Assembly: GCA_028042835.1 (NCBI GenBank)
Contig: JAOFOL010000010.1
Coordinates: 1 to 58,430 of the forward strand
DNA from: Opitutales bacterium
GTDB lineage: Bacteria; Verrucomicrobiota; Verrucomicrobiia; Opitutales; Seribacteraceae
Reading direction: 5' to 3'
DNA: 58,430 bases
The notes under the pieces are model-generated. The model did no database searches, was not told where the DNA came from, and saw only the letters and a list, made by a program, of their open reading frames with translations. Numbering within the stretch: the first letter of the stretch is position 1; every line of letters begins with the position of its first letter. The position numbers and the translations under genes are program-made. Below are positions 18,851-43,206 of this stretch, in pieces.

Positions 18851-20224
18851 CTACCGATTAGACTTATTTTTAAGTCCCATGATTCGTCCCTCTTCACTCG
18901 CAGTGGAAAGTCGGGTTTTGGCCATTTGGGCCAGAATATCTTCAAACTCCTCTTTGATTCTGCGTTCAGCTTTATTCATTTTTTGATCCGCTAATTCTTT
19001 CCCGTTAAACTGTCCCTTGTAACGGGTTAGTGTGGCACCACTTCCATCCTGCTTGGCCAAAAGGGAATACTTTTTATTACGGATCATGACCTGATTTCGA
19101 TACCAAATGTAGATCCAATCTTTTTTTCGAATATCTTTCTTATTTGTAAGGACGGGAACGATGCTGGAACCATCTGCAGGGTGATTCTTTGGCAGGTCTG
19201 CCCCGGAGATTTCACAAAGGGTAGGCAACATGTCTGTGAACTCAACAAGTTCATCGGTTATCCGACCGGGCTTTTTGATACCAGCCGGCCAGTTAACGAT
19301 TAAGGGAACCCGGGTGCCGGTGTCACTCATGGATCCTTTACCGCCCACGACTTCCGTGCCGTTCCATGGTGTTACGATGGGTTTATCGGTTCCATTATCT
19401 CCTGTGAAGATGAGGATGGTGTTTTCTCGAACCCCTGATTTTTCGAGCTGCTTGATGATTTGCCCAACCATTTTATCGGCGAAATTTACCATGTCGATGA
19501 AGTGACGTTGTGGATCATTTTTGTCCCCCTTGTAGGTTGTCGAACCAAGTCTCTTCGGATCCCAATCGGTGGAGTCGGGTGTGGGATCAAAAGGACAATG
19601 GGTAAGAATCATCGGATAGTAGACAAGGAATGGTATTTTTTTATTTTCGTCGATAAAGTCACAAACGAAATCGGTACAGACCTGTGGCCCGTATTCGCCG
19701 GATGTGAAATCCTTTTCTTTTCCGTTGAATTCAAGCATCGGGTTGACGAAGCGCCGGTCGATTCTTTTTCCGTTTTCATTGGAACGTCCACCTCGTGTAT
19801 GCTGCCAGAGCCAGGATTTTTCGAAGCCGAAATGCTGGGGCGAATCCGGTTGATTTCCCAATTGCCACTTGCCAGCGATCGCTGTCTTGTAACCAGCTGC
19901 TTTAAGTTGGTGAGCGAAGGTGGTTTGTCCACGGTCCAGCATCCCAAACTTCACATAGTTCCGGACATTGTATTGCCCGGTCATAATTTTGGTTCGGGAG
20001 GGCGTGCAGATGGGGTTGGAAAAACAATTAGTAAAGCGCACACCTTCTGCGGCAAGTTTGTCGAGGTTGGGTGACTTGCAGGATTCGCTACCGTTCGAAG
20101 ATAGAGCTTCGTATCCCATGTCATCAGCCATAATTAAAATGATATTGGGTTGGTTTTCTTTGGCGAAAACTAGGGCGTGAACATAAATACAGACAAGATA
20201 AAGTAGTTTTCTGGAATATTTCAT
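18851..20224 (-). CDS. Secreted sulfatase
   Basis: Started at the ATG at 20224 (457 residues) rather than the upstream ATG at 20266, because this places the signal peptide KYSRKLLYLVCIYVHALVFA at the N-terminus. Metal motif NIILIMADDMGYEALSSNG, formylglycine site C73-T-P-S-R77, distal FTGDNGTD. The region DKKDIRKKDWIYIWYRN is found in sulfatases related to choline or N-acetylglucosamine sulfatases, but I cannot assign the substrate. The family-typical C-terminal ELYDLKKDP block is absent; the protein ends in a charged helical stretch. Confidence 0.9.
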   Translation of the reverse strand: MKYSRKLLYLVCIYVHALVFAKENQPNIILIMADDMGYEALSSNGSESCKSPNLDKLAAEGVRFTNCFSNPICTPSRTKIMTGQYNVRNYVKFGMLDRGQTTFAHQLKAAGYKTAIAGKWQLGNQPDSPQHFGFEKSWLWQHTRGGRSNENGKRIDRRFVNPMLEFNGKEKDFTSGEYGPQVCTDFVCDFIDENKKIPFLVYYPMILTHCPFDPTPDSTDWDPKRLGSTTYKGDKNDPQRHFIDMVNFADKMVGQIIKQLEKSGVRENTILIFTGDNGTDKPIVTPWNGTEVVGGKGSMSDTGTRVPLIVNWPAGIKKPGRITDELVEFTDMLPTLCEISGADLPKNHPADGSSIVPVLTNKKDIRKKDWIYIWYRNQVMIRNKKYSLLAKQDGSGATLTRYKGQFNGKELADQKMNKAERRIKEEFEDILAQMAKTRLSTASEEGRIMGLKNKSNR

Positions 20225-20287
20225 TATAAAATATCTATGTTCAAAGATATTTTGTAATGATAGCAAAGGGATTCTTATGCATTAGGG

Positions 20288-21157
20288 TTATTTTTTCGTT
20301 GAGATATGTTTGTTTAACCAGGCCCGAGCTCTTTGACGGGTTGAGCTTTCTCGGTGGGCCCAGAGGTCCGTGTGTGGGTGGATGACCAAACCATCAGGAA
20401 TATCGAAAATCTTGGTAACGAAGACGGGTAAAAAAGTAAAGTTTCCAAGTTCGGGATGCTTTTTCAGGTAGTCATTGGCGTTTCCGCATACCAGGACGGA
20501 TCGACCCTTGAGACGGGCAAGTCGCTCGAGGGCGGAGGCACGATCACTTTGGGGGTAGCCCCATTTTCTCTGGCCGTCGAAATGATCGTGGGCGATCATT
20601 CCTTTCCAAAAGACGGCAATTTCATTATCTGCTAATCCAATATAACTGCAAGCGATAGCACCACGGGAAAATCCACAGATAAAAAGGTTTTCGGGATCAC
20701 CTCCGAATTCATCGCAGATTCGGGGTAGGTTGTCTTTGCAGTAATCGATGGTGGCCTGACGATCTCCCCACCAAGTCACAGCATTTTCTTTTCCCCCTTT
20801 TTGAATGTAGGGCATGGAGACCCAGATGAATCCTTTTCCTCCGCTTAAGCCGTAGCCCAGGTTTGCATTCTTAACCTCTCCGGTTGATCCGCATGCGGGG
20901 AATTTGTTACCAGTGTATTCGACAAGTACGGGGTAAGTTTGACCCTTTATCCAATCTGTCGGCAAATAGAGGGAATGGTATACCTGAGTTCCTTTGTATT
21001 CTAGAGCGACTTGCCTGGTACGCTTTCCCGCACCGGGAGGGTCCTCTGTCATTGGGGGCGTAACTAAATCTTCTTTTGATTGAGGACTTCCTTCAGAATG
21101 AGTATACCCGTTCCCTAGCAAAAAGATGACAAAAAGGAGTCGGGTAATGGTGTTCAT
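20288..21157 (-). CDS. Secreted alpha/beta hydrolase-fold esterase
   Basis: A 289-residue protein from the ATG at 21157 (signal MNTITRLLFVIFLLGNGYT). The frame continues upstream to 21229, but the extra residues precede the signal and are unlikely. It has an early QVYHSLYLPTDW block, the nucleophile elbow FICGFSRGAIACSY (GxSxG), a later VLVCGNANDYLKK acid region and a terminal His in HPHTDLWAH. The pattern is like feruloyl esterase or PHB-depolymerase-type esterases. It sits between a sulfatase and an anti-sigma factor gene on the same strand. Confidence 0.75.
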   Translation of the reverse strand: MNTITRLLFVIFLLGNGYTHSEGSPQSKEDLVTPPMTEDPPGAGKRTRQVALEYKGTQVYHSLYLPTDWIKGQTYPVLVEYTGNKFPACGSTGEVKNANLGYGLSGGKGFIWVSMPYIQKGGKENAVTWWGDRQATIDYCKDNLPRICDEFGGDPENLFICGFSRGAIACSYIGLADNEIAVFWKGMIAHDHFDGQRKWGYPQSDRASALERLARLKGRSVLVCGNANDYLKKHPELGNFTFLPVFVTKIFDIPDGLVIHPHTDLWAHRESSTRQRARAWLNKHISTKK

Positions 21158-21244
21158 CCAAAGCCATTCTAGGTCGGAATGCTTTTGGGTCGATGAGAAT
21201 CGTGGAATTGAATTGAAATTTCCTTCCAAGTTGAATTTGCGAAA

Positions 21245-22171
21245 TCAGGATTTAGCCAAAGCAACTACGACTTCCTGCTTGGATTTTACGACACCACCTG
21301 ATTGTTCAAGGGTGATCACAAAAGCGACAGGTTTATTAATGGCTAATGCATTACGAATAGGGATGATCGACTTTCCATCCTTCTGGGTGATATCAAATAC
21401 CCCTCCATCCACTGGCAGTTCATCGCGTTCAGGATCCACAATCCATAGTTGATATTGGTTCTTGGTCGGATCATTTACCGCAAGATTCTCCAGGGACATA
21501 TAACCTTCCTGCTTTTCATCATTCCATATCACTTCTCCGCTAAGTCCCGCATAAGGATCGCTTGCTGATGCAAATTCGAGTATCTGAGTATCCGATTCAT
21601 CTTGGATAAGAGATTCAAATTTTTGTATCAGAGGAAGTTTCTCAGTTAGCTTTGCGATTTGGGTATTCAATGCATCAATTTTTCCTGATTCTGTTGATAG
21701 CTCACTGCTCAATTTTTCATTGAGTTTGGCCAACTCTTGTCTGGCGGATTCCAGATCAGTAATGGTTTTTTCCTTATCTGAAAGTTCCGTCTTCGCCTGA
21801 GTCAATTCAGCTGAAACATTCTGGATACCATCACCAGTTGGCAGATTGAAGAAAACAAGCAGGCAAGCCGCCGCTGCCCAGCCGAGCCAAGGGAGGATTG
21901 AAATAATTTGGGTTGTAGGTTTCTTTGCGTTGTTATTCGAAAAGGCAGGGATTGTGTCAGTCAACTTGGATAAAAGGGAACTTGATAGATCACAGGGTTG
22001 TACATGATTGAGCTCTAACTCAGTGGCAAGGATTTCAAGCTCGATGGAATGGACGTCTTCCATCTCAGTTGCAAGAGTTTGCCATTCTGAGATTTCTTTG
22101 GCGGAAAGGTCACCAAGAATTCGACCAGCATCCAGTTCTTCGAATCGAGCTAATGTTTTATCCATGCTCAT
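21245..22171 (-). CDS. RskA-like anti-sigma factor
   Basis: A 308-residue single-pass membrane protein. The cytosolic N-terminus (1-85) holds a Glu/Leu-rich anti-sigma region without a clear zinc motif. A membrane segment lies at about 91-110 (LPWLGWAAAACLLVFF), followed by a coiled coil (about 120-190, LTQAKTELSDKEKTITDLES). The extracytoplasmic end is an RskA-like domain (NDPTKNQYQLWIVDPERDE, PVDGGVFDI, FVITLEQSGGVVKSKQEVV). Its start overlaps the sigma gene stop as ATGA, so the pair is co-produced. It should hold the sigma factor inactive until a signal outside the membrane triggers proteolysis. Confidence 0.85.
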   Translation of the reverse strand: MSMDKTLARFEELDAGRILGDLSAKEISEWQTLATEMEDVHSIELEILATELELNHVQPCDLSSSLLSKLTDTIPAFSNNNAKKPTTQIISILPWLGWAAAACLLVFFNLPTGDGIQNVSAELTQAKTELSDKEKTITDLESARQELAKLNEKLSSELSTESGKIDALNTQIAKLTEKLPLIQKFESLIQDESDTQILEFASASDPYAGLSGEVIWNDEKQEGYMSLENLAVNDPTKNQYQLWIVDPERDELPVDGGVFDITQKDGKSIIPIRNALAINKPVAFVITLEQSGGVVKSKQEVVVALAKS

Positions 22172-22848
22172 TGGGCAACTCCTTCCCCGTGGTTGAATTC
22201 TTTAAGTAGCTTGCGGGCTTCAATTAACCCACGTCGGAGTTTGGTTTTGACGGTACCAATTGGCAGTTTTGTCTGCCGAGCAATTTCGACATGAGACAGG
22301 CCTTTTTCGAAGTGTAATGAAAATAAATTTAATGTGTCTTTGGGAAGATTTTTTAAGACATCCCAAAGCTCCGTGCGATCAATCGAATGAAGATTACTAG
22401 AAGATGCAGAGGGAAGTTCAGGAAGGCTATCTAAGGTTGCCAGTGCAGGAAGGCGATTCTGTTTGCGTTGCCAGTCAATCGAGCGTCTTCTCGCGATCAT
22501 GCCAATAAAAGTGGATTCCTTGGATTTTTTCGAATCAAAGCGATCGGCAATTCTCCAGATTTCTGTGAAGATTTCCTGACAAGCTTCCTCTGCGTCCACT
22601 CGTTCGTTAATTCTTCGGCAGACGATACTCCATACAAGTGGACCATATGAATCAATGCATCTTTTCATTGCTGTCTCATCTCCCTTTGCAACTAAGGGCA
22701 GCAGAAGCTTCTCCGCTATCCCTTGGCTTTCTGAAGACGGGACAATTCCAAGGGCGAACTCGAAAGACCGAATGTTTGAAAAGAGGATAAAGTTTCGAAA
22801 AGGCATGAGGAGGAATTGTTGGAAGATGACTCTTCTTTTTATATGCAT
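22168..22848 (-). CDS. ECF sigma factor, SigK-like
   Basis: A 226-residue ECF sigma-70 factor. Region 2 runs from LLPLVAKGDETAMKRCID to EIFTEIWRIADRFDSKKSKESTFIGMIARRRSIDWQRK. Region 4 is RTELWDVLKNLPKDTLNLFSLHFEKGLSHVEIARQTKLPIGTVKTKLRRGL. The first about 50 residues are an unusual extension; the ATG at 22848 is used, and an ATG at 22806 is an alternative. It is directly followed by its RskA-like partner and preceded after 30 bases by the three-domain FAS1 gene, so it is likely transcribed with its own target. Confidence 0.87.
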   Translation of the reverse strand: MHIKRRVIFQQFLLMPFRNFILFSNIRSFEFALGIVPSSESQGIAEKLLLPLVAKGDETAMKRCIDSYGPLVWSIVCRRINERVDAEEACQEIFTEIWRIADRFDSKKSKESTFIGMIARRRSIDWQRKQNRLPALATLDSLPELPSASSSNLHSIDRTELWDVLKNLPKDTLNLFSLHFEKGLSHVEIARQTKLPIGTVKTKLRRGLIEARKLLKEFNHGEGVAQ

Positions 22849-22878
22849 CAACGAAAATCATCGGTAAGGATTTCCATA

Positions 22879-24573
22879 TTAGCGTCCAAACCTTTGTTTT
22901 TTGGGAAGTTGCATTAAATAAGAATCTACGATGCGGTCTTCCCGTTGTTCCAGTTCACGCAATAAATCGCGGAAGACGTTACGGGATGTCCATGCCTCCC
23001 GGGCAAGCTGAGCAACTGGTTGGTCGTCAAGAATCACATTTCTTAGTTTGTTGCTTTGGGATGAACTTGTGAACTTTGAATATTTGGTAAGAAATTCATT
23101 GCCTCTTCTTATGTAATTACGCCAACTGGCTTCATACTTCCCCTGATCGTATAGCGCCGAACTTTCCTTGATTGAATTTTGGACGAATAGTATGGCATCG
23201 ACTGTGGTTATATCTTTTTCAGGTAGCTCCATTGGGTCTTTAATTACAGAGCCAATTGCATTTACTAATCCGTTGAAAGCCTCTTCATCGGATTCAATTA
23301 TCCGAATGCCGCTGATTTTCGATTTACCCTCATCCTGGGTGAGATAAATCGGGGCACCGTGAATAGTCCTAAGCTTGTTGTAAGGCTTAGGGTTTTCGCT
23401 CACATGCTTGCCTACAATAACATGCCGTGACAAAACACCGTAGAGTTCTTCAGTTCCGGAGTCCCCATGGTTTTCAATTAATGATTTGTAAGGCTCTTTT
23501 TCCCATGCCTCATTGACCGGTGCAAAGATGGTAAAGATGGTTCTGGATGACGCCAAAGGAAGATCCAATCCCGTCTCTTTAAGCAAATGGGTCAAAGTAC
23601 TGAACCTTTTTTGATTCTTGATCAATTCGAGAAGGCTTTTTTCGGCGGGTAAAATTACATCATCAATGACATGGATGATCCCGTTGGCACAGGGTATATC
23701 CGTCTCGATTATTTTGGCTCCGTCTACAGTGGCATGTTTGTCGTTAAATTTGTAGTTCAGTTGTTGGCCAAAGGCACTGAATGGCGTTACATCGGAAACG
23801 CCAAGACTGCGGCGACCACCCGATGATTTGCCATATGCAAATACTTGTTCGGTAATGTGGTGTTTGATGATATCTTCGAGACGCTCATCGTTCTCGGGAA
23901 GAAATAAAGATTCCACGGTTTTGGCCGGAAGTTTTTTGAAGGCTTCGTCTGTGGGAGCAAAGGTAGTGTACAAACTGTGCATGTTTTGGAATAATTTTCC
24001 CTGACGACTGGCGGTGATTGCCTTGGTGAAAATCGTAAATCTTCCATCTTTTTGGAGACGCTGAAAGAGGTCATCAGTGGTAGGGGTGAGTACCTTATCG
24101 ATGAGATATATTACTCCATTCGAGCATGGGATGACCTGACCGGTGAAACGAGCATTTCCAATCGTTCCTTCTTTGTAATTAACTGAAATAAACTGACGGG
24201 TGGTCATCCGGAGGATGGAATATTTCTCAATGAAGATTGGGGCCTCCGAAATTTCCTTCACATGAAACCCAAAAACTTCTTCCAATCGGTCATCATTACG
24301 AGGATCCAATAATGTTTGCACGGTTCCCTTGGGTAACTTTTTGAAAGCAGCATCAGTGGGGGCAAATACAGTGTAGCTCGTAGAAGTGTTTTCAGATAAT
24401 GTTGAACCAATTCCTGTCTTTTCGAGTAACTGTAGAAAGTTAGACAAATCCGGCATTTCCCGTATGGTCCGGCCTATGGTTTTGGCTTCGGCTGGATTTG
24501 CGGCATCCAAGGCAGGAATAAGAAAGCACAGAAAAGTAGAAGTTGCCAAAAGAAGAGTGCGGAAAGTTTTCAT
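22879..24573 (-). CDS. Secreted protein with three fasciclin (FAS1) domains
   Basis: A 564-residue secreted protein (signal 1-24). Three FAS1 domains follow at about 35-165, 172-314 and 315-450, each with the H1 motif ([45 protein letters not shown]) and the H2-type end ([43 protein letters not shown]). The C-terminal about 110 residues are charged and helical with no domain I know. FAS1 proteins mediate adhesion or matrix contact. It is co-located with a SigK/RskA-like pair, as are mycobacterial FAS1 proteins MPT70/83 in regulation. Confidence 0.9.
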   Translation of the reverse strand: MKTFRTLLLATSTFLCFLIPALDAANPAEAKTIGRTIREMPDLSNFLQLLEKTGIGSTLSENTSTSYTVFAPTDAAFKKLPKGTVQTLLDPRNDDRLEEVFGFHVKEISEAPIFIEKYSILRMTTRQFISVNYKEGTIGNARFTGQVIPCSNGVIYLIDKVLTPTTDDLFQRLQKDGRFTIFTKAITASRQGKLFQNMHSLYTTFAPTDEAFKKLPAKTVESLFLPENDERLEDIIKHHITEQVFAYGKSSGGRRSLGVSDVTPFSAFGQQLNYKFNDKHATVDGAKIIETDIPCANGIIHVIDDVILPAEKSLLELIKNQKRFSTLTHLLKETGLDLPLASSRTIFTIFAPVNEAWEKEPYKSLIENHGDSGTEELYGVLSRHVIVGKHVSENPKPYNKLRTIHGAPIYLTQDEGKSKISGIRIIESDEEAFNGLVNAIGSVIKDPMELPEKDITTVDAILFVQNSIKESSALYDQGKYEASWRNYIRRGNEFLTKYSKFTSSSQSNKLRNVILDDQPVAQLAREAWTSRNVFRDLLRELEQREDRIVDSYLMQLPKKQRFGR

Positions 24574-24580
24574 GGGAAGG

Positions 24581-24611
24581 TTTCGGTTTTTAAGCGTTTG
24601 TCCAAGGATAA
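24581..24611 (-). promoter_or_regulatory. Possible ECF-sigma promoter elements before three-domain FAS1 gene
   Basis: On the minus strand TTATCC (24611-24606) and CCGAAA (24586-24581) are separated by 19 bases. They loosely resemble mycobacterial SigK promoter elements (CCATCC and CCGAAT as I recall them). The spacing differs from that in front of the second FAS1 gene, so this is only suggestive. Confidence 0.2.
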
Positions 24612-24632
24612 CTGAATATTTAACCTATAATA

Positions 24633-24664
24633 TAGGCGGGTCTTCCTTGAAGAAGACCCGCCTA
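24633..24664 (-). terminator. Strong hairpin between the two FAS1 genes
   Basis: A perfect 13-bp stem (24633-24645 with 24652-24664, GC-rich arms AGGCGGGTCTTC) around a 6-base loop, 17 bases beyond the stop of the single-domain FAS1 gene. The tail on the minus strand is A/T-rich (ATATTATAGG) but not a T-run. It is probably a terminator or attenuator that separates the two FAS1 transcripts. Confidence 0.65.
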
Positions 24665-24680
24665 AGAATTCGAAATTAAA

Positions 24681-25427
24681 TTAATGAGCTGATGCAAGAA
24701 CCTTATCGAAAGCATGACGCATGATCCATGCTTGGGAAGTTGGGCAGTGCTCGGCCTTAGCCCTGTGCATGGCAGTTTTGATTGTATTTGCGGCACTTGA
24801 GCATACGGAAGAAGAGCATTGTCCAAGGACATCGTTTCCAGCTTTCATGTAAAGGGCTGCAGTTTGTGAATGATGTCCGGAGTTAAACATAGGCACGCCC
24901 TTGTGGATAGCCTGCTTGAGGATGTGGTTGGTGTTTCCGGAAACCTTTTTTGGGGTGGGGAGCAAAACGGCATCAATTACATGAATGATTCCGTTTGATG
25001 TTTTGATGTTCGCTTTGATTACCTTTGCGTCATTAATCATCAAAATCTTACCACTTGCCTTGATGGCAATTTCTGCACCATTGACCGTTTTGGCAGAATC
25101 GAGCTTGGCGGCTTTCTTGGCCTTCACCTTGCCTGATATTACGTGGTAGGTGAGGATATCAACGAGTTTTTGTTTGTTCTCAGGTTTGAGAAGAGTCTCG
25201 ACGGTGCCTTTGGGCAACTTGGCAAAAGCCTCGTCGGTTGGGGCGAAGACGGTGAAAGGGCCTTCTCCCTTGAGCGTGTCAACTAAACCTGCTGCCTTAA
25301 CCGCAGTAACAAGCGTTTTGAAACTGCCTGCTTCCACGGCGGTGTCGACGATGTCTTTTTTGGGAGCACCAATTAACAAGGTGCTCATCATTAGAAGAGA
25401 AGTTATCGATAATATTATTTTTTTCAT
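24681..25427 (-). CDS. Secreted single-domain fasciclin (FAS1) protein with Cys-bearing tail
   Basis: A 248-residue protein: signal 1-20 ([11 protein letters not shown]), one FAS1 domain (about 25-160) with [36 protein letters not shown] and [19 protein letters not shown] 90-residue tail carries three Cys residues ([21 protein letters not shown]). The FAS1 domain size and motif set match MPT70-type proteins. The tail may form disulphides or anchor the protein. The gene is monocistronic, with a strong hairpin after its stop, and diverges from the ATP-grasp operon. Confidence 0.92.
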
Positions 25428-25479
25428 ATGTTTAATTTTGGTTTAAATTGTGTGTTAAAATTTTTGATACTACATGTAT

Positions 25480-25506
25480 ATTCGTTCGCTTTTTGATATT
25501 GGATTC
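25480..25506 (-). promoter_or_regulatory. Possible ECF-sigma promoter before single-domain FAS1 gene
   Basis: On the minus strand GAATCC (25506-25501) and ACGAAT (25485-25480) are separated by 15 bases, about 50 bases before the start codon. These hexamers share ATCC and CGAAT with the mycobacterial SigK consensus as I recall it. It is a guess that the neighbouring sigma factor uses it. Confidence 0.3.
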
Positions 25507-25594: not shown

Positions 25595-25608
25595 AGAAAT
25601 TGTTATAT

Positions 25609-27057
25609 ATGCCCTTAAACAGGTTCAGTTCTTATGAAACGGATGGATTTTTCGACGAAATGTTCGGACTCGGCGATGGATCTGAGCCTCTCGATCATTA
25701 TCATAGGTTGGTTTCGAGGATTGCGAAACTAGATGGTGAACGCATGGAAGCCAAACAGAGACAAGCCGCTTCTTCCTTCCTTGAGCACGGAATCACTTTT
25801 ACTGTTTATGGTGACGATAAAGGCTCCGAGAGAATTTTTCCTTTCGACCTAATACCCAGAGTTATTCCGCTTACAGAATGGCAACTTGTTGAGCAGGGGC
25901 TAAGTCAACGAATCATAGCGTTGAACCTTTTTCTTAACGATGTTTACCACGGAGCGAAAATTATCAAGGATGGCATCATTCCCAGAGAAGTTGTTGAGTC
26001 TTCCCCTCACTTCCGTCGGGAAATGATCGGTTTCGATGTACCTAGGGATATCTATATTCACATTTGCGGTAGTGATCTGATCAGAGACGAAAATGGCAAG
26101 TATCTGGTTCTAGAGGATAACGCCCGTTGTCCTTCAGGGGTCTCATACCTTCTGGAAAATAGGCAAATTATGAAGAAAGCCTTTCCTTTGACCTATCGTG
26201 ACATGTCTGTCCGCCCAGTTGAAGCTTATCCTGAGTTGCTACTTAAAACACTTGAGTTTCTCTCCCCCCGTCAGTCAGGTAAACCTGTTTGCGTTTTATT
26301 GACTCCTGGAGTCTACAATAGTGCTTACTTTGAGCACACTTACTTGGCTCGTCAAATGGGTATCGAAATCGTGGAGGGGAGAGATCTGATTACGACTGAT
26401 GGTTTTGTATACATGCGAACAACGCACGGACTCGTACAAGTTGATGTTATTTACCGGAGGATGGACGACGAGTTTCTCGATCCAACTTTTTTTAACAAAG
26501 ATTCTCTCCTGGGCGTTTCCGGTTTGATGGATTCTTATCTCAGGGGGAATGTTTCACTGGCAAATGGTATTGGTACTGGCGTTTCAGACGACAAGGTAAC
26601 CTATGCATATGTGCCTGAAATGATTCGATATTACTTGGATCAAGAGCCGATTCTTGATCAAGTCCCAACCTATCTTTGTTGGAAGGAAGAGGACTGTAAG
26701 TTCGTTTTAGAAAACCTTCCCGACTTGGTTGTCAAACCAGCGAATGAATCTGGTGGCTACGGTATGCTTGTCGGCAGTGCCTCGACACAAAAGCAAAGAA
26801 TGGAGTTTGCCCAGAGAATACGGGCTTCCCCGCGCGATTACATTGCTCAACCAATTGTAGCTCTTTCTCGGCACCCTACTTTTTGTGAGGGAAGAATTGA
26901 GGGGAGGCATGTGGACCTTCGCCCTTTCATCCTTTATGGAGAGGATGTTGAGATCGTGCCTGGTGGGCTTACTCGGGTTGCTTTGGAAAAGGGTTCACTT
27001 GTAGTTAATTCCTCTCAGGGCGGAGGTAGTAAGGACACTTGGGTCCTTAAGGATTAG
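25609..27057 (+). CDS. Circularly permuted ATP-grasp type 2 protein
   Basis: A 482-residue cytosolic protein of the circularly permuted ATP-grasp family (COG2308, formerly DUF404/DUF407). Hallmarks are [77 protein letters not shown] and a closing [23 protein letters not shown]. The ATG at 25609 is chosen because the TTG three codons upstream lies in the likely transcript start. It heads the three-gene operon with an alpha-E and a transglutaminase gene. It is expected to form an amide or peptide bond using ATP; substrate unknown. Confidence 0.93.
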
Positions 27058-27060
27058 GCG

Positions 27061-28032
27061 ATGCTTTCGAGAGTTGCAGATACCTTATATTGGATGAGCC
27101 GTTTCGTTGAACGGGCGGAGGGAGTTACCCGCCTGGTAGAAATTCACAGAGATACTGATCTTGAATCGGATGCCCGTAGCGGAGATTTCGGTTATTGGCA
27201 TTCCACTCTTCAATCTATGTGTGCGAAAGAACAATTCGAGGAAGACGAGATGCAAGGACCGGACGCCTTTCTCCTTTTTTCTAGTCAATGGAACAATTCC
27301 GTCATCAATAGCATCAACTCAGCAAGAGAAAACGCCCGAATGGTAAGGGATCAGCTTTCGGAGGAAATATGGGTTGAGTTGAATTCACTATACCATTTCC
27401 TTAATTCTAATAATGCCATCCTTGAATATCAAAACGACGAGTCTTCTTTTTTTCGACGTATCATTCGCTTTTCTCTCGTATTTCAAGGCCTTTCGGATGC
27501 TACGATTCACCATGATGAGGGATGGCGCTTTATGTCTTTGGGCAAATATCTCGAGAGGGCCGACCTTACGAGTAGGGTCCTTGATACTTTGACTTTATTG
27601 GGTTCCGACCCTTCGCGATTGGATCTTATTCGGGCTCTTCGTTCTTGCAGTGCTTTTTCTGCATATAGAAAGAGATATCGAGGAGCACTAACCATGCATA
27701 ATGTAGCAGATTTTCTTCTTTTCTCTCAGGATTTCCCTCGTTCCATTCGCTTTTCAATCAGAGGCGTTGATGCTCAGTTGCACGAAATATCCGGCGTTCC
27801 ATCCGGGAATTTTTCGAATGAAGCCGAGCGCTTGGCTGGGAGTGCTTTGGCTCAAGTTAATTTTTCAAACATTGATTCGATGATAAGAAGTGGTTTACAC
27901 AACTCGATCGACGACCTTCAGAAGAAGCTTATGGAAGTAGGGCAAAGCATTTTCGAGACTTATGTCCTCCTTCCCTTCGAGATCAAGAGTGCCTCTCCCT
28001 TGCCTCTGCTCCAGATGCAACAGCAGCAATAA
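27061..28032 (+). CDS. Alpha-E domain protein (DUF403)
   Basis: A 323-residue all-helical protein beginning MLSRVADTLYWMSRFVERAEGVTRLVEIHRD, the family signature of alpha-E proteins (COG2307). Further signature stretches are ENARMVRDQLSEEIWVELN, HHDEGWRFMSLGKYLERAD, and LLFSQDFPRSIRFSI. It starts three bases after the ATP-grasp stop, the order known from many bacteria, and probably acts with that enzyme and the transglutaminase-like peptidase. The function is not known. Confidence 0.93.
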   Translation: MLSRVADTLYWMSRFVERAEGVTRLVEIHRDTDLESDARSGDFGYWHSTLQSMCAKEQFEEDEMQGPDAFLLFSSQWNNSVINSINSARENARMVRDQLSEEIWVELNSLYHFLNSNNAILEYQNDESSFFRRIIRFSLVFQGLSDATIHHDEGWRFMSLGKYLERADLTSRVLDTLTLLGSDPSRLDLIRALRSCSAFSAYRKRYRGALTMHNVADFLLFSQDFPRSIRFSIRGVDAQLHEISGVPSGNFSNEAERLAGSALAQVNFSNIDSMIRSGLHNSIDDLQKKLMEVGQSIFETYVLLPFEIKSASPLPLLQMQQQQ

Positions 28033-28075
28033 TTCATTACGCTCTTTCAAGAGAACTTAAGTTTTACTTACCATC

Positions 28076-28930
28076 ATGCGTCTACACGTTCTTCATAAGA
28101 CTCACTACACATATCCTTCTCCGGTTCGAGACAGTTTTAACGAATTAAGGCTTCAACCGCTTTCAAACGATTGGCAGAGGTGCGAATCCTGTTTTGTAAG
28201 TGTCCTTCCTACCACTCCTTTAGGTCAATATCTGGATCTTAATGGAAACCTGGTTCACCATTTCGAGATTCCAGAAGATCATTCGAAACTTATTATTGAA
28301 AGCAGGTCGATTACGACTACTTCGAAACGGGTTGATTTCGAAAGTTTTCCTTATGGTGTTCAAATGAAGAATCTCAGAGAAGTCGGAGGCAATCCGGAAT
28401 GCCGAGACTATCTTCAAAAATCTCATTTTGTATCAATCGATCCGGAGACCTGGAGAGAAGCCGTTGAAATTCAAGGACATTCAAAGGATGTATTCCAAAC
28501 AGCCTATCAGATTATGGAGCATGTTTATCTGAATTTCGAATATTGTGCTTCCACAACAAGCGTTGATACCGACACATTGGAGGTTCTCAAAAACAGAAGG
28601 GGCGTATGCCAGGACTTCGCTCATGTTGTTATTGCACTGTGCAGGTGTTTGGGTATTCCAGCTCGCTATGTCAGTGGGTATTTTTACGACTCAACAAGGA
28701 ATCGAACCATGCGTGGGGCTGAGGCTTCGCACGCGTGGTTGGAAGTTTTTATTGATGGGTACGGCTGGATTGGATTGGACCCTACAAACAATTGCGTAGT
28801 GCGCGAAAACTATGTCATTATTGGTGCTGGAAGAGATTATAGGGATGTTGCTCCGGTTACGGGTACCTACTTCGGACGTCTTCCCGAGAGCATGGACATC
28901 AGTGTTAGCGTGAAGCGTATGGATGAGTAG
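28076..28930 (+). CDS. Transglutaminase-like peptidase (COG1305)
   Basis: A 284-residue protein with an N-terminal beta-rich region (MRLHVLHKTHYTYPSPVRDSFNELRLQP) and a transglutaminase core: Cys in RRGVCQDFAHV, His in ASHAWLEVFIDGYGW, Asp in GLDPTNN. All three catalytic residues are kept. It has no signal peptide. It is the third gene of the conserved ATP-grasp/alpha-E trio, where it may cleave or re-ligate the amide bonds made by the ATP-grasp enzyme. It is converged upon by the YdjM-like gene 126 bases on. Confidence 0.92.
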   Translation: MRLHVLHKTHYTYPSPVRDSFNELRLQPLSNDWQRCESCFVSVLPTTPLGQYLDLNGNLVHHFEIPEDHSKLIIESRSITTTSKRVDFESFPYGVQMKNLREVGGNPECRDYLQKSHFVSIDPETWREAVEIQGHSKDVFQTAYQIMEHVYLNFEYCASTTSVDTDTLEVLKNRRGVCQDFAHVVIALCRCLGIPARYVSGYFYDSTRNRTMRGAEASHAWLEVFIDGYGWIGLDPTNNCVVRENYVIIGAGRDYRDVAPVTGTYFGRLPESMDISVSVKRMDE

Positions 28931-42685: not shown

Positions 42686-43206
42686 TGGTTACCTCCAGGC
42701 TCCATTTTTAGCTCAACGCATTTTCTTAAAGAATTCTGAATTCGTGAGAGCCGCTTATACACCGCATCGAGGGTTATGCTGATGGAGTCAGCAATCTCTC
42801 CACAGCTCAAGCCTTCGAAATAACGTAAACGGAGTATTTTTTCTGATTTTTGTGGCAATTCTTCCATGCAATCACGAAGCAGTTCGAATCGATTTCCTTT
42901 GGGATTCAAATGATCATTTTGCCAATCCTGATGTATTAAGGTGAGGATATCTTCGTCTATACCAACCGATTCCCTTCGATGCTTTCGGAACCAGTTCAAG
43001 CTATCCCTCCGAGCAGTAATGAAGGCCCAGGAAAATAAAGCGGCTTCAGCATCGAAATTCACATCCTTGGTTACTGCCTTAAGCACAGTGTTCTGAAAGA
43101 TATCTTCTGCCACATGAGCATCCTTAACCACCAACCAGGCAGCTGCTGATATCCGCTCACGAGATTGCATGAGGAAGCGAAGTATTTCTTTTTCTGAAAG
43201 AGGCAT
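42682..43206 (-). CDS. ECF sigma factor, PVC-type
   Basis: A 174-residue ECF sigma factor. Region 2 is LVVKDAHVAEDIFQNTVLKAVTKDVNFDAEAALFSWAFITARRDSLNWFRKHRR, and region 4 is CMEELPQKSEKILRLRYFEGLSCGEIADSISITLDAVYKRLSRIQNSLRKC. It is followed by its FecR-like partner with a 4-base ATGA overlap. Such pairs in Planctomycetes and Verrucomicrobia belong to the Rhodopirellula/Verrucomicrobium-type sigma family. It has no visible link to the FAS1 sigma gene. Confidence 0.9.
   Translation of the reverse strand: MPLSEKEILRFLMQSRERISAAAWLVVKDAHVAEDIFQNTVLKAVTKDVNFDAEAALFSWAFITARRDSLNWFRKHRRESVGIDEDILTLIHQDWQNDHLNPKGNRFELLRDCMEELPQKSEKILRLRYFEGLSCGEIADSISITLDAVYKRLSRIQNSLRKCVELKMEPGGNQ

Follow-up and report, generated by a model that had tools for sequence, protein, structure and literature searches.

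Secreted FAS1 proteins of Verrucomicrobiota under a putative membrane-gated ECF sigma switch

Introduction

In Mycobacterium and other Actinobacteria, the extracytoplasmic function (ECF) sigma factor SigK (groups ECF18 and ECF19) is paired with the RskA anti-sigma factor and has the fasciclin (FAS1) proteins MPT70 and MPT83 as targets. An mpt83-sigK-rskA cassette has been reported, its site being conserved even in Yersinia (PMC7509140). RskA is described as both an inhibitor and an activator (PMC7509140) and is counted among the class I anti-sigma factors (PMC7406223). Cassettes of FAS1, SigK and RskA genes have thus been known beyond the Actinobacteria before. The present analysis concerns a row of genes of similar composition, in which two FAS1 genes are followed by genes for an ECF sigma factor and an RskA-type anti-sigma factor, in an Opitutales bacterium of the phylum Verrucomicrobiota. 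The window, meaning the whole stretch of DNA analyzed, covers positions 1 to 58,430 of contig JAOFOL010000010.1 (assembly GCA_028042835.1, 63% complete).

A fasciclin target is likewise found in the RpoE-ChrR systems of Rhodobacter sphaeroides and Azospirillum, which belong, unlike the window system, to group ECF11. In R. sphaeroides, the fasciclin gene RSP_1409 and the sigma gene rpoHII are RpoE targets, ChrR is a zinc/cupin anti-sigma factor without a membrane anchor, and the FAS1 gene is unlinked to the RpoE-ChrR genes. A table of the photooxidative response of R. sphaeroides includes the fasciclin gene and rpoHII as a second sigma gene (PMC7074977), and flocculation in Azospirillum has been attributed to a fasciclin under RpoE-ChrR (cited in PMC10949492).

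Related cassettes are present in the Gammaproteobacteria Yersinia and Pantoea. On a Pantoea agglomerans plasmid (L160), a FAS1 gene is followed by an ECF sigma gene and an RskA_C anti-sigma gene (66.1 bits), an order identical to that of the window. However, the Pantoea sigma factor is about 32% identical to that of the window and takes a different place in the tree, on a long branch of its own, and the Pantoea FAS1 gene is preceded by GCATCC-N16-CGTATA (read by eye), not by the GAATCC-N16-CGAA of the window. Pantoea accounts for 52 of the 182 plasmid records that match the sigma factor and for 52 of the 209 that match FAS1. In the window, genes for FAS1, sigma factor and RskA-type protein are adjacent, and FAS1 is preceded by a conserved box that the sigma factor is predicted to read. 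In contrast to the mpt83-sigK-rskA cassette, this sigma factor falls outside SigK and has an N-terminal extension conserved in the window's family, and the row includes a three-domain FAS1 gene and a hydrolase-like gene.

The window locus is, with high confidence, interpreted here as a membrane-gated ECF sigma switch that would control secreted FAS1 proteins through GAATCC-N16-CGAA promoters. Homologous genes are linked in relatives too, and the box precedes linked FAS1 genes in preference to others. That the sigma factor drives FAS1 is a strong prediction, because the conserved unit of sigma, RskA-type and FAS1 genes shares a promoter box. The unit is a real, conserved and well-supported regulatory one; it adds a new branch to a kind of system already described and does not constitute a new kind. 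What is new is the Verrucomicrobiota-centred sigma branch, its promoter, and the occurrence in some relatives of the same box before an RpoS-like sigma gene; a literature search of limited coverage yielded no recognised description of a verrucomicrobial sigma-FAS1 branch.

Organization of the locus

The genes lie on the minus strand and follow one another, in order of transcription, as single-domain FAS1, three-domain FAS1, ECF sigma factor, RskA_C anti-sigma factor, hydrolase-like gene and sulfatase. The first gene (24681..25427; Pfam Fasciclin, 138 bits, one stretch) encodes a protein with an N-terminal hydrophobic signal, whose hydropathy peaks at residues 4-22, and a C-terminal extension. 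The second (22879..24573; Pfam Fasciclin, three stretches, 226.4 bits) has a signal peptide-like N-terminus. The sigma gene (22168..22806; 212 amino acids) shows the domain content of an ECF factor, with Sigma70 regions 2 (Sigma70_r2, 55 bits) and 4 (r4_2, 38.4 bits, plus an overlapping r4 match) and no other Pfam family. It shares an ATGA overlap with the anti-sigma gene (21245..22171; Pfam RskA_C, 36.3 bits, cut-off 29.4). An earlier note on this DNA had described the order and domains of the FAS1, sigma and anti-sigma genes and the overlap, all of which are borne out by the window sequence and Pfam.

The sigma gene probably starts at the ATG at 22806, not at the TTG at 22851 of the listed open reading frame (ORF). 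An ATG at this place is common to all ten loci compared (the window and nine relatives), and the peptide R[N/D][F/Y]ILFSNI that follows it constitutes an N-terminal extension of the sigma factor kept in the window's family. An in-frame stop is present no more than 12 bases upstream of this ATG in L006, L007, L008, L012 and L014, five of the nine relatives. Because of the ATG and peptide shared by ten loci and the upstream stops in five, the start is taken as 22806, and the gap to the three-domain FAS1 gene is therefore 72 bases; the 30-base gap of the earlier note had been reckoned from the TTG.

The anti-sigma protein comprises an N-terminal part, one transmembrane segment (~21851-21907; hydropathy peak at residues 89-107) and the RskA_C domain (~21290-21703), a domain that scores 38.7 bits in the relative L116. 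Its profile aligns with that of SigK-type RskA over 228 columns on both sides of the transmembrane segment (hhalign P 97.4, E 9.6e-12). By analogy, the RskA-type protein is predicted to bind and inhibit the window sigma factor and to be cleaved on a signal.

Linkage of FAS1 and sigma genes

In a survey of 57 relatives, in which sigma matches above 240 bits were counted, 10 genomes, including that of the window, carry the sigma gene at 11 loci, and 16 of the 57 have FAS1. The sigma factor is 86-87% identical in G017, from the same genus as the window genome. Ten of the loci lie outside the window; two of these begin at sigma, and in all eight testable ones the three-domain FAS1 gene precedes sigma, its product being ~83-98% identical to that of the window, with some relatives covered only in part. 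The FAS1-sigma neighbourhood is more than chance.

The linkage extends further. In a survey of 387 genomes of the phylum (at least 80% complete except for the window's own; at most eight sigma candidates scored per genome), seven, the window's included, exceed 180 bits for sigma, the next best score being 103.6. A FAS1 domain lies within ~1.1 kb of sigma in six of the seven. Another family of the same class (f23) shows FAS1, sigma and anti-sigma in this order in G370 and G266, and sigma, anti-sigma and FAS1 in G358, G229 and G319; G378, also of that family, is absent from the FAS1-bearing genomes. The linkage of FAS1 and sigma is kept while the gene order changes, including in this other family.

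A scan of named genomes with the sigma alignment A3 gave the best 80 of 506 confirmed stretches, so that more such loci exist. The 41 best sigma relatives by E-value (L172-L212; 42-87% identity) are titled Verrucomicrobiota, except for the unclear titles 'Gammaproteobacteria' (L199) and 'Bacterium' (L191). The surveys overlap, at least eight of the named loci (L172-L177, L182 and L198) being on the same contigs as loci of the other surveys. RskA-type and FAS1 neighbours were counted with profiles built in this analysis; a whole-genome search with PF10099 missed the window's own gene and was left out. An RskA-type gene follows sigma in 41/41 of these relatives, and 36 have a same-strand FAS1 gene no more than 3 kb away from sigma (28 upstream, 5 downstream, 3 on both sides; L186, a weak FAS1 match of 24 bits, is counted among them). 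Such a survey of neighbourhoods, which the earlier note had proposed, finds the linkage beyond the genus. Among the remaining 39 loci (L213-L251; 29-44% identity), two, L213 and L220, have FAS1 within the stretch examined, both on the opposite strand. The locus titled Gammaproteobacteria holds a typical verrucomicrobial version and is probably a mislabelled metagenome-assembled genome (MAG).

A shared promoter box

The sequences upstream of FAS1 in the window's family have TTTTTTGAATCCAA...CGAATA in common. In the window, a predicted ECF promoter on the minus strand (25479..25506) precedes the single-domain FAS1 gene: a -35 element GAATCC at 25506-25501, a 16-base spacer and a -10 element CGAATA at 25484-25479. 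The exact box (25506-25481, the extended -10 reaching 25479) is the only exact match in the whole window. Across the 15 FAS1 copies of the family that were examined, the window included, it stands 67-84 bases before the start in 12; the first copy of G009 has one mismatch, and the first copy of G024 and that of G027 have no match. Two G015 copies were unreadable owing to runs of N. The FAS1 copies of G038 and G048, genomes of the same taxonomic order, are not preceded by the box. A search for a close sigma gave none in G027, G038 or G048.

In the 41 best loci (818,534 bases, both strands), GAATCC followed by CGAA occurs 59 times with a 16-base spacer, compared with 0-7 times at every other length between 5 and 30 bases. 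Restricting the count to 25 representatives whose sigma factors are below 75% identity, drawn from the 39 loci with an extractable sigma, leaves 38 occurrences of the 16-base form. Permuting the letters of GAATCC gave a mean of 0.88 occurrences and a largest count of 6, and permuting CGAA gave 0-5. Of the 37 testable loci, 33 carry the box ahead of the leading operon gene (24/28 FAS1-first and 9/9 sigma-first), four others (L173, L174, L177 and L190) being excluded by contig ends. Where FAS1 lies downstream of the anti-sigma gene, it has its own box in 6/8 cases (not L194 or L198). A conserved GGAAA...CGTTGATG stretch between the three-domain FAS1 and sigma genes was considered as the main promoter and rejected, since it differs between subclades, whereas comparison of the loci points to GAATCC-N16-CGAA.

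Controls were drawn from the 621 bases upstream of FAS1 genes, including 36 hand-picked sigma-free cases from 31 genomes of the phylum listing. The exact box precedes four of five linked FAS1 control genes, none of the 36 sampled in sigma-free genomes (one relaxed match) and none of 12 unlinked ones in sigma-bearing genomes. From an additional FAS1 search in the 24 genomes behind chosen loci, 26 rows were tried, 18 of them readable and some representing domains of one gene. Two of the 18 have the exact box, one in Phycisphaeraceae (L255, opposite strand, near sigma) and one acidobacterial (L262, on another contig). The exact box is absent from the unlinked FAS1 rows of the genomes that carry L178, L204, L207 and L216.

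Between the two FAS1 genes lies a conserved hairpin (24633..24664, minus strand), with 13 consensus pairs in eight sequences; six of the pairs show compensating changes on both sides that preserve the pairing. It is perhaps a leaky terminator or a processing site. A terminator pattern scan did not include it among its matches, and the sigma-70 and terminator pattern scans gave no excess over shuffles. No exact box in the window belongs to the three-domain FAS1 gene, which would depend on read-through past the hairpin. The proposal in the earlier note that sigma drives both FAS1 genes is accordingly supported by the box for the single-domain gene, and for the three-domain gene it finds no such direct counterpart.

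Other genes under the box

One such gene encodes a group 2 sigma-70 factor. It is divergent and has its own box 28-31 bases before the start in 8 of the 41 loci (L192, L196, L204, L206, L207, L208, L210 and L211; the reading frame of L208 is short). The protein of L192, the one tested, has regions 1.2, 2, 3 and 4; among NCBIfam models RpoS fits it best, scoring 297.8 bits against a cut-off of 378.7. RpoS-like genes also occur at L117 (divergent, own box), at L216, and at L113, where the gene lies downstream of FAS1 in the same direction. Ten of the 11 RpoS-like loci show their own box, L216 having been outside the box check. The downstream copy of L113 is again boxed, so that the box follows the RpoS-like gene through rearrangement. 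A sigma cascade from ECF factor to RpoS is likely in some relatives. Further boxed genes encode multi-domain FAS1 proteins (L190, L200 and L209), phosphodiesterases (L178, family-tested, and L180) and small ORFs of ~104 amino acids located ~1.5 kb downstream of the sigma start (L184, L185, L191 and L193); that of L185 has no Pfam or NCBIfam match.

Boxes were also found before MORN-repeat genes (L149, L151, L153 and L154) and MoxR ATPase genes (L150, L152, L155 and L156). These eight were picked by eye among the matches listed, with spacers resembling those of FAS1. Those in genomes where the linked sigma was not found are either read by another sigma factor, or remains of a lost regulon, or partly due to chance.

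Several observations weigh against control of FAS1 by the linked sigma factor. Within the window, the single match is not significant alone, as 20 of 100 shuffles hold one, and the three-domain FAS1 and sigma genes have no exact box of their own. Among the FAS1-first loci, the exact box is missing in L189, L193, L194 and L210 (which has GAATCT). The sigma-bearing genomes contain unlinked FAS1 genes without the box, and five of the 41 best relatives have no FAS1 beside sigma (L178, L182, L204, L207, and L177, which is cut by a contig end). Of the 44 genomes searched, with or without sigma, 41 contain one or more copies of TGAATCC-N16-CGAA, the reversed word being rarer. Boxed FAS1 genes are present in the family genomes G006 and G022 (78% and 63% complete), where sigma was not found; the G006 contig ends inside the three-domain FAS1 gene. 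Lastly, five of the eight MORN/MoxR boxes are in family genomes (G004, G010, G025, G031 and G034) where sigma was not found and where the best matches to its profile reach 50-117 bits.

Some of these points would fit a sigma factor that controls only its own regulators and other stress genes, the FAS1 genes being inherited neighbours with a housekeeping promoter. The five loci lacking an adjacent FAS1 gene agree with this, as does the frequency of FAS1 in the phylum without sigma (FAS1 in 52 of the 387 genomes, sigma in 7). The linkage, however, outlasts rearrangement of the gene order, and the exact box is found before 4/5 linked FAS1 genes as against 0/48 others sampled, which makes this explanation very unlikely.

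Others would fit a box read mainly by another ECF sigma factor, such as a paralogue of ~30% identity that is present in many relatives, with the linked sigma having other targets. In genomes where the linked sigma was not found, boxes precede MoxR and MORN genes and also, in G006 and G022, FAS1, and in G015 (L075, contig C20, 4476-5872) a second FAS1 gene lies just before the paralogue sigma, its upstream sequence consisting of N. Yet the exact box is present in 0/20 loci scanned for other ECF sigma factors, 17 of which hold this paralogue, whereas the linked sigma's own operons are boxed in 9/9 cases when sigma comes first, and FAS1 genes in genomes without the linked sigma have the box in 0/36 sampled cases. 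Reading of the box by another sigma is thus improbable, if slightly less so than the inherited-neighbour explanation. The paralogue was also considered as a sharer of the locus type and rejected on the same 20 loci, of which L015, L018 and L032 belong to other ECF sigmas. In the 17 paralogue loci, sigma is followed, 61-104 bases downstream, by a separate reading frame of 291-419 residues. The preferred reading remains the linked sigma factor as the reader of the box before FAS1.

Relationship to SigK

The earlier note had likened the sigma factor to SigK. The best NCBIfam models for the window sigma are PRK12519 (87.4 bits) and SigK (85.8 bits), both far below their cut-offs. The SigK cut-off is 226 bits, and the actinobacterial L164, L223 and L226 are SigK at 265-279 bits. 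In an 87-row tree, made with a quick method and having weak deeper branches and several flagged long branches, the Verrucomicrobiota rows group together (SH-like approximate likelihood ratio test, SH-aLRT, 97). They form part of a long-stemmed clade (SH-aLRT 99) with three Planctomycetota rows, two Acidobacteriota rows and one 'Gammaproteobacteria' MAG row, separate from a clade of six actinobacterial rows (SH-aLRT 100). SigK of M. tuberculosis has cysteines at 133 and 183, reported to be present in 94% of ECF18 and 56% of ECF19 members (PMC7509140). Both columns are leucine in the window sigma (by eye, alignment to 4nqw). Because of the model score, the clade and the cysteines, the sigma factor is not filed as SigK, and the identification does not hold. 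When the window clade is constrained to group with SigK, the approximately unbiased (AU) test does not reject it (p 0.772; the constrained tree is 12.96 log units better than the quick free tree), nor when Pantoea is added to the constrained clade (p 0.553). A common clade of the window sigma and SigK is allowed, neither shown nor rejected.

In promoter layout the system matches the SigK group, although its sigma factor falls outside SigK. The SigK consensus is CCATCC for -35 and CCGAAT for -10; the comparison made here rests on actinobacterial loci. CAATCC-N16-CGAA stands before sigma in 12/12 actinobacterial loci among the best 80 of 506 (L223, L226, L228, L233, L235-L238, L245, L246, L249 and L250), of which L223 and L226 were tested and are SigK. 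A Kineococcus FAS1 gene has CAATCC-N16-CGAAC upstream, and the other three actinobacterial FAS1 genes examined have no match with a 16-base spacer. A weaker look-alike, AAATCC-N16-CGTAAA, was seen by eye between divergent sigma and FAS1 genes of Epilithonimonas.

The common promoter layout in Actinobacteria, together with the same gene order on the Pantoea plasmid and the AU result, would fit a true SigK/RskA system transferred from Actinobacteria or Gammaproteobacteria. The SigK score of 85.8 against 226 bits, the absent cysteine pair and the position in a separate clade on a long stem, shared with Planctomycetota and Acidobacteriota, render such a transfer the least credible of the alternatives, one that is scarcely to be expected. 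A new Verrucomicrobiota-centred branch with a similar promoter is preferred. In sum, the earlier proposal of the same functional triple outside Actinobacteria stands insofar as the unit is conserved beyond the genus with a shared box, but such triples were already known elsewhere and the sigma factor is not SigK.

Neighbouring genes

The hydrolase-like gene (20288..21229, minus; no Pfam match) begins, by its listed start, 15 bases 3' of the anti-sigma gene and directly follows it in 10/10 family loci that reach that far; it is probably in the same operon. The sulfatase gene (18851..20266, minus) is the sixth in the row. In one contig of G022 (L076, C1, 9731-12510), a boxed FAS1 gene is directly followed by a hydrolase-like remnant and a sulfatase gene; the genes for the three-domain FAS1 protein, the sigma factor and the anti-sigma factor seem to have been lost by deletion. 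Divergently, on the plus strand (25600-28930), there are genes for a circularly permuted ATP-grasp protein and an Alpha-E protein and a further gene (transglutaminase-like by eye); this run begins, by its listed start, 172 bases from the single-domain FAS1 gene. A second, distant ECF sigma gene is located at 42715-43128 (minus; 36.9 bits to the sigma profile).

Proposed mechanism

The RskA-type protein would hold the sigma factor at the membrane, presumably with its cytoplasmic N-terminal part binding it, and the RskA_C domain would sense something outside the membrane. By analogy with RskA, an envelope signal may free the sigma factor through stepwise proteolysis. The freed sigma factor would then guide RNA polymerase to GAATCC-N16-CGAA, in the window to the promoter at 25506-25479, which would yield abundant single-domain FAS1 protein. 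Read-through past the hairpin would presumably give less of the three-domain FAS1 protein, the sigma factor, the anti-sigma factor and the hydrolase-like protein. As sigma and anti-sigma would be made together, the arrangement may amount to a positive feedback loop that carries a built-in brake. Secreted FAS1 protein would be the product, probably serving cell-cell or surface adhesion.

Implications

A broader interpretation can be offered only tentatively, as it is more doubtful than the switch itself: a single code, approximately AATCC-N16-CG(A/T)A, may have been kept with RskA-gated ECF sigmas and FAS1 in Actinobacteria, Verrucomicrobiota, Planctomycetota and Acidobacteriota, and perhaps in Bacteroidota and Gammaproteobacteria, with the switch standing above an RpoS-like gene in part of Verrucomicrobiota. 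If this is true, control of FAS1 would be among the oldest traceable ECF regulons, and one envelope signal would start both surface adhesion and the general stress response.

For Verrucomicrobiota, the analysis provides this sigma branch with a concrete and cheaply testable promoter and regulon. The link between FAS1 and sigma known from the mycobacterial antigens recurs in distant phyla with a very similar promoter layout, and the RpoS-like gene under the same box suggests a cascade that joins adhesion with stress survival.

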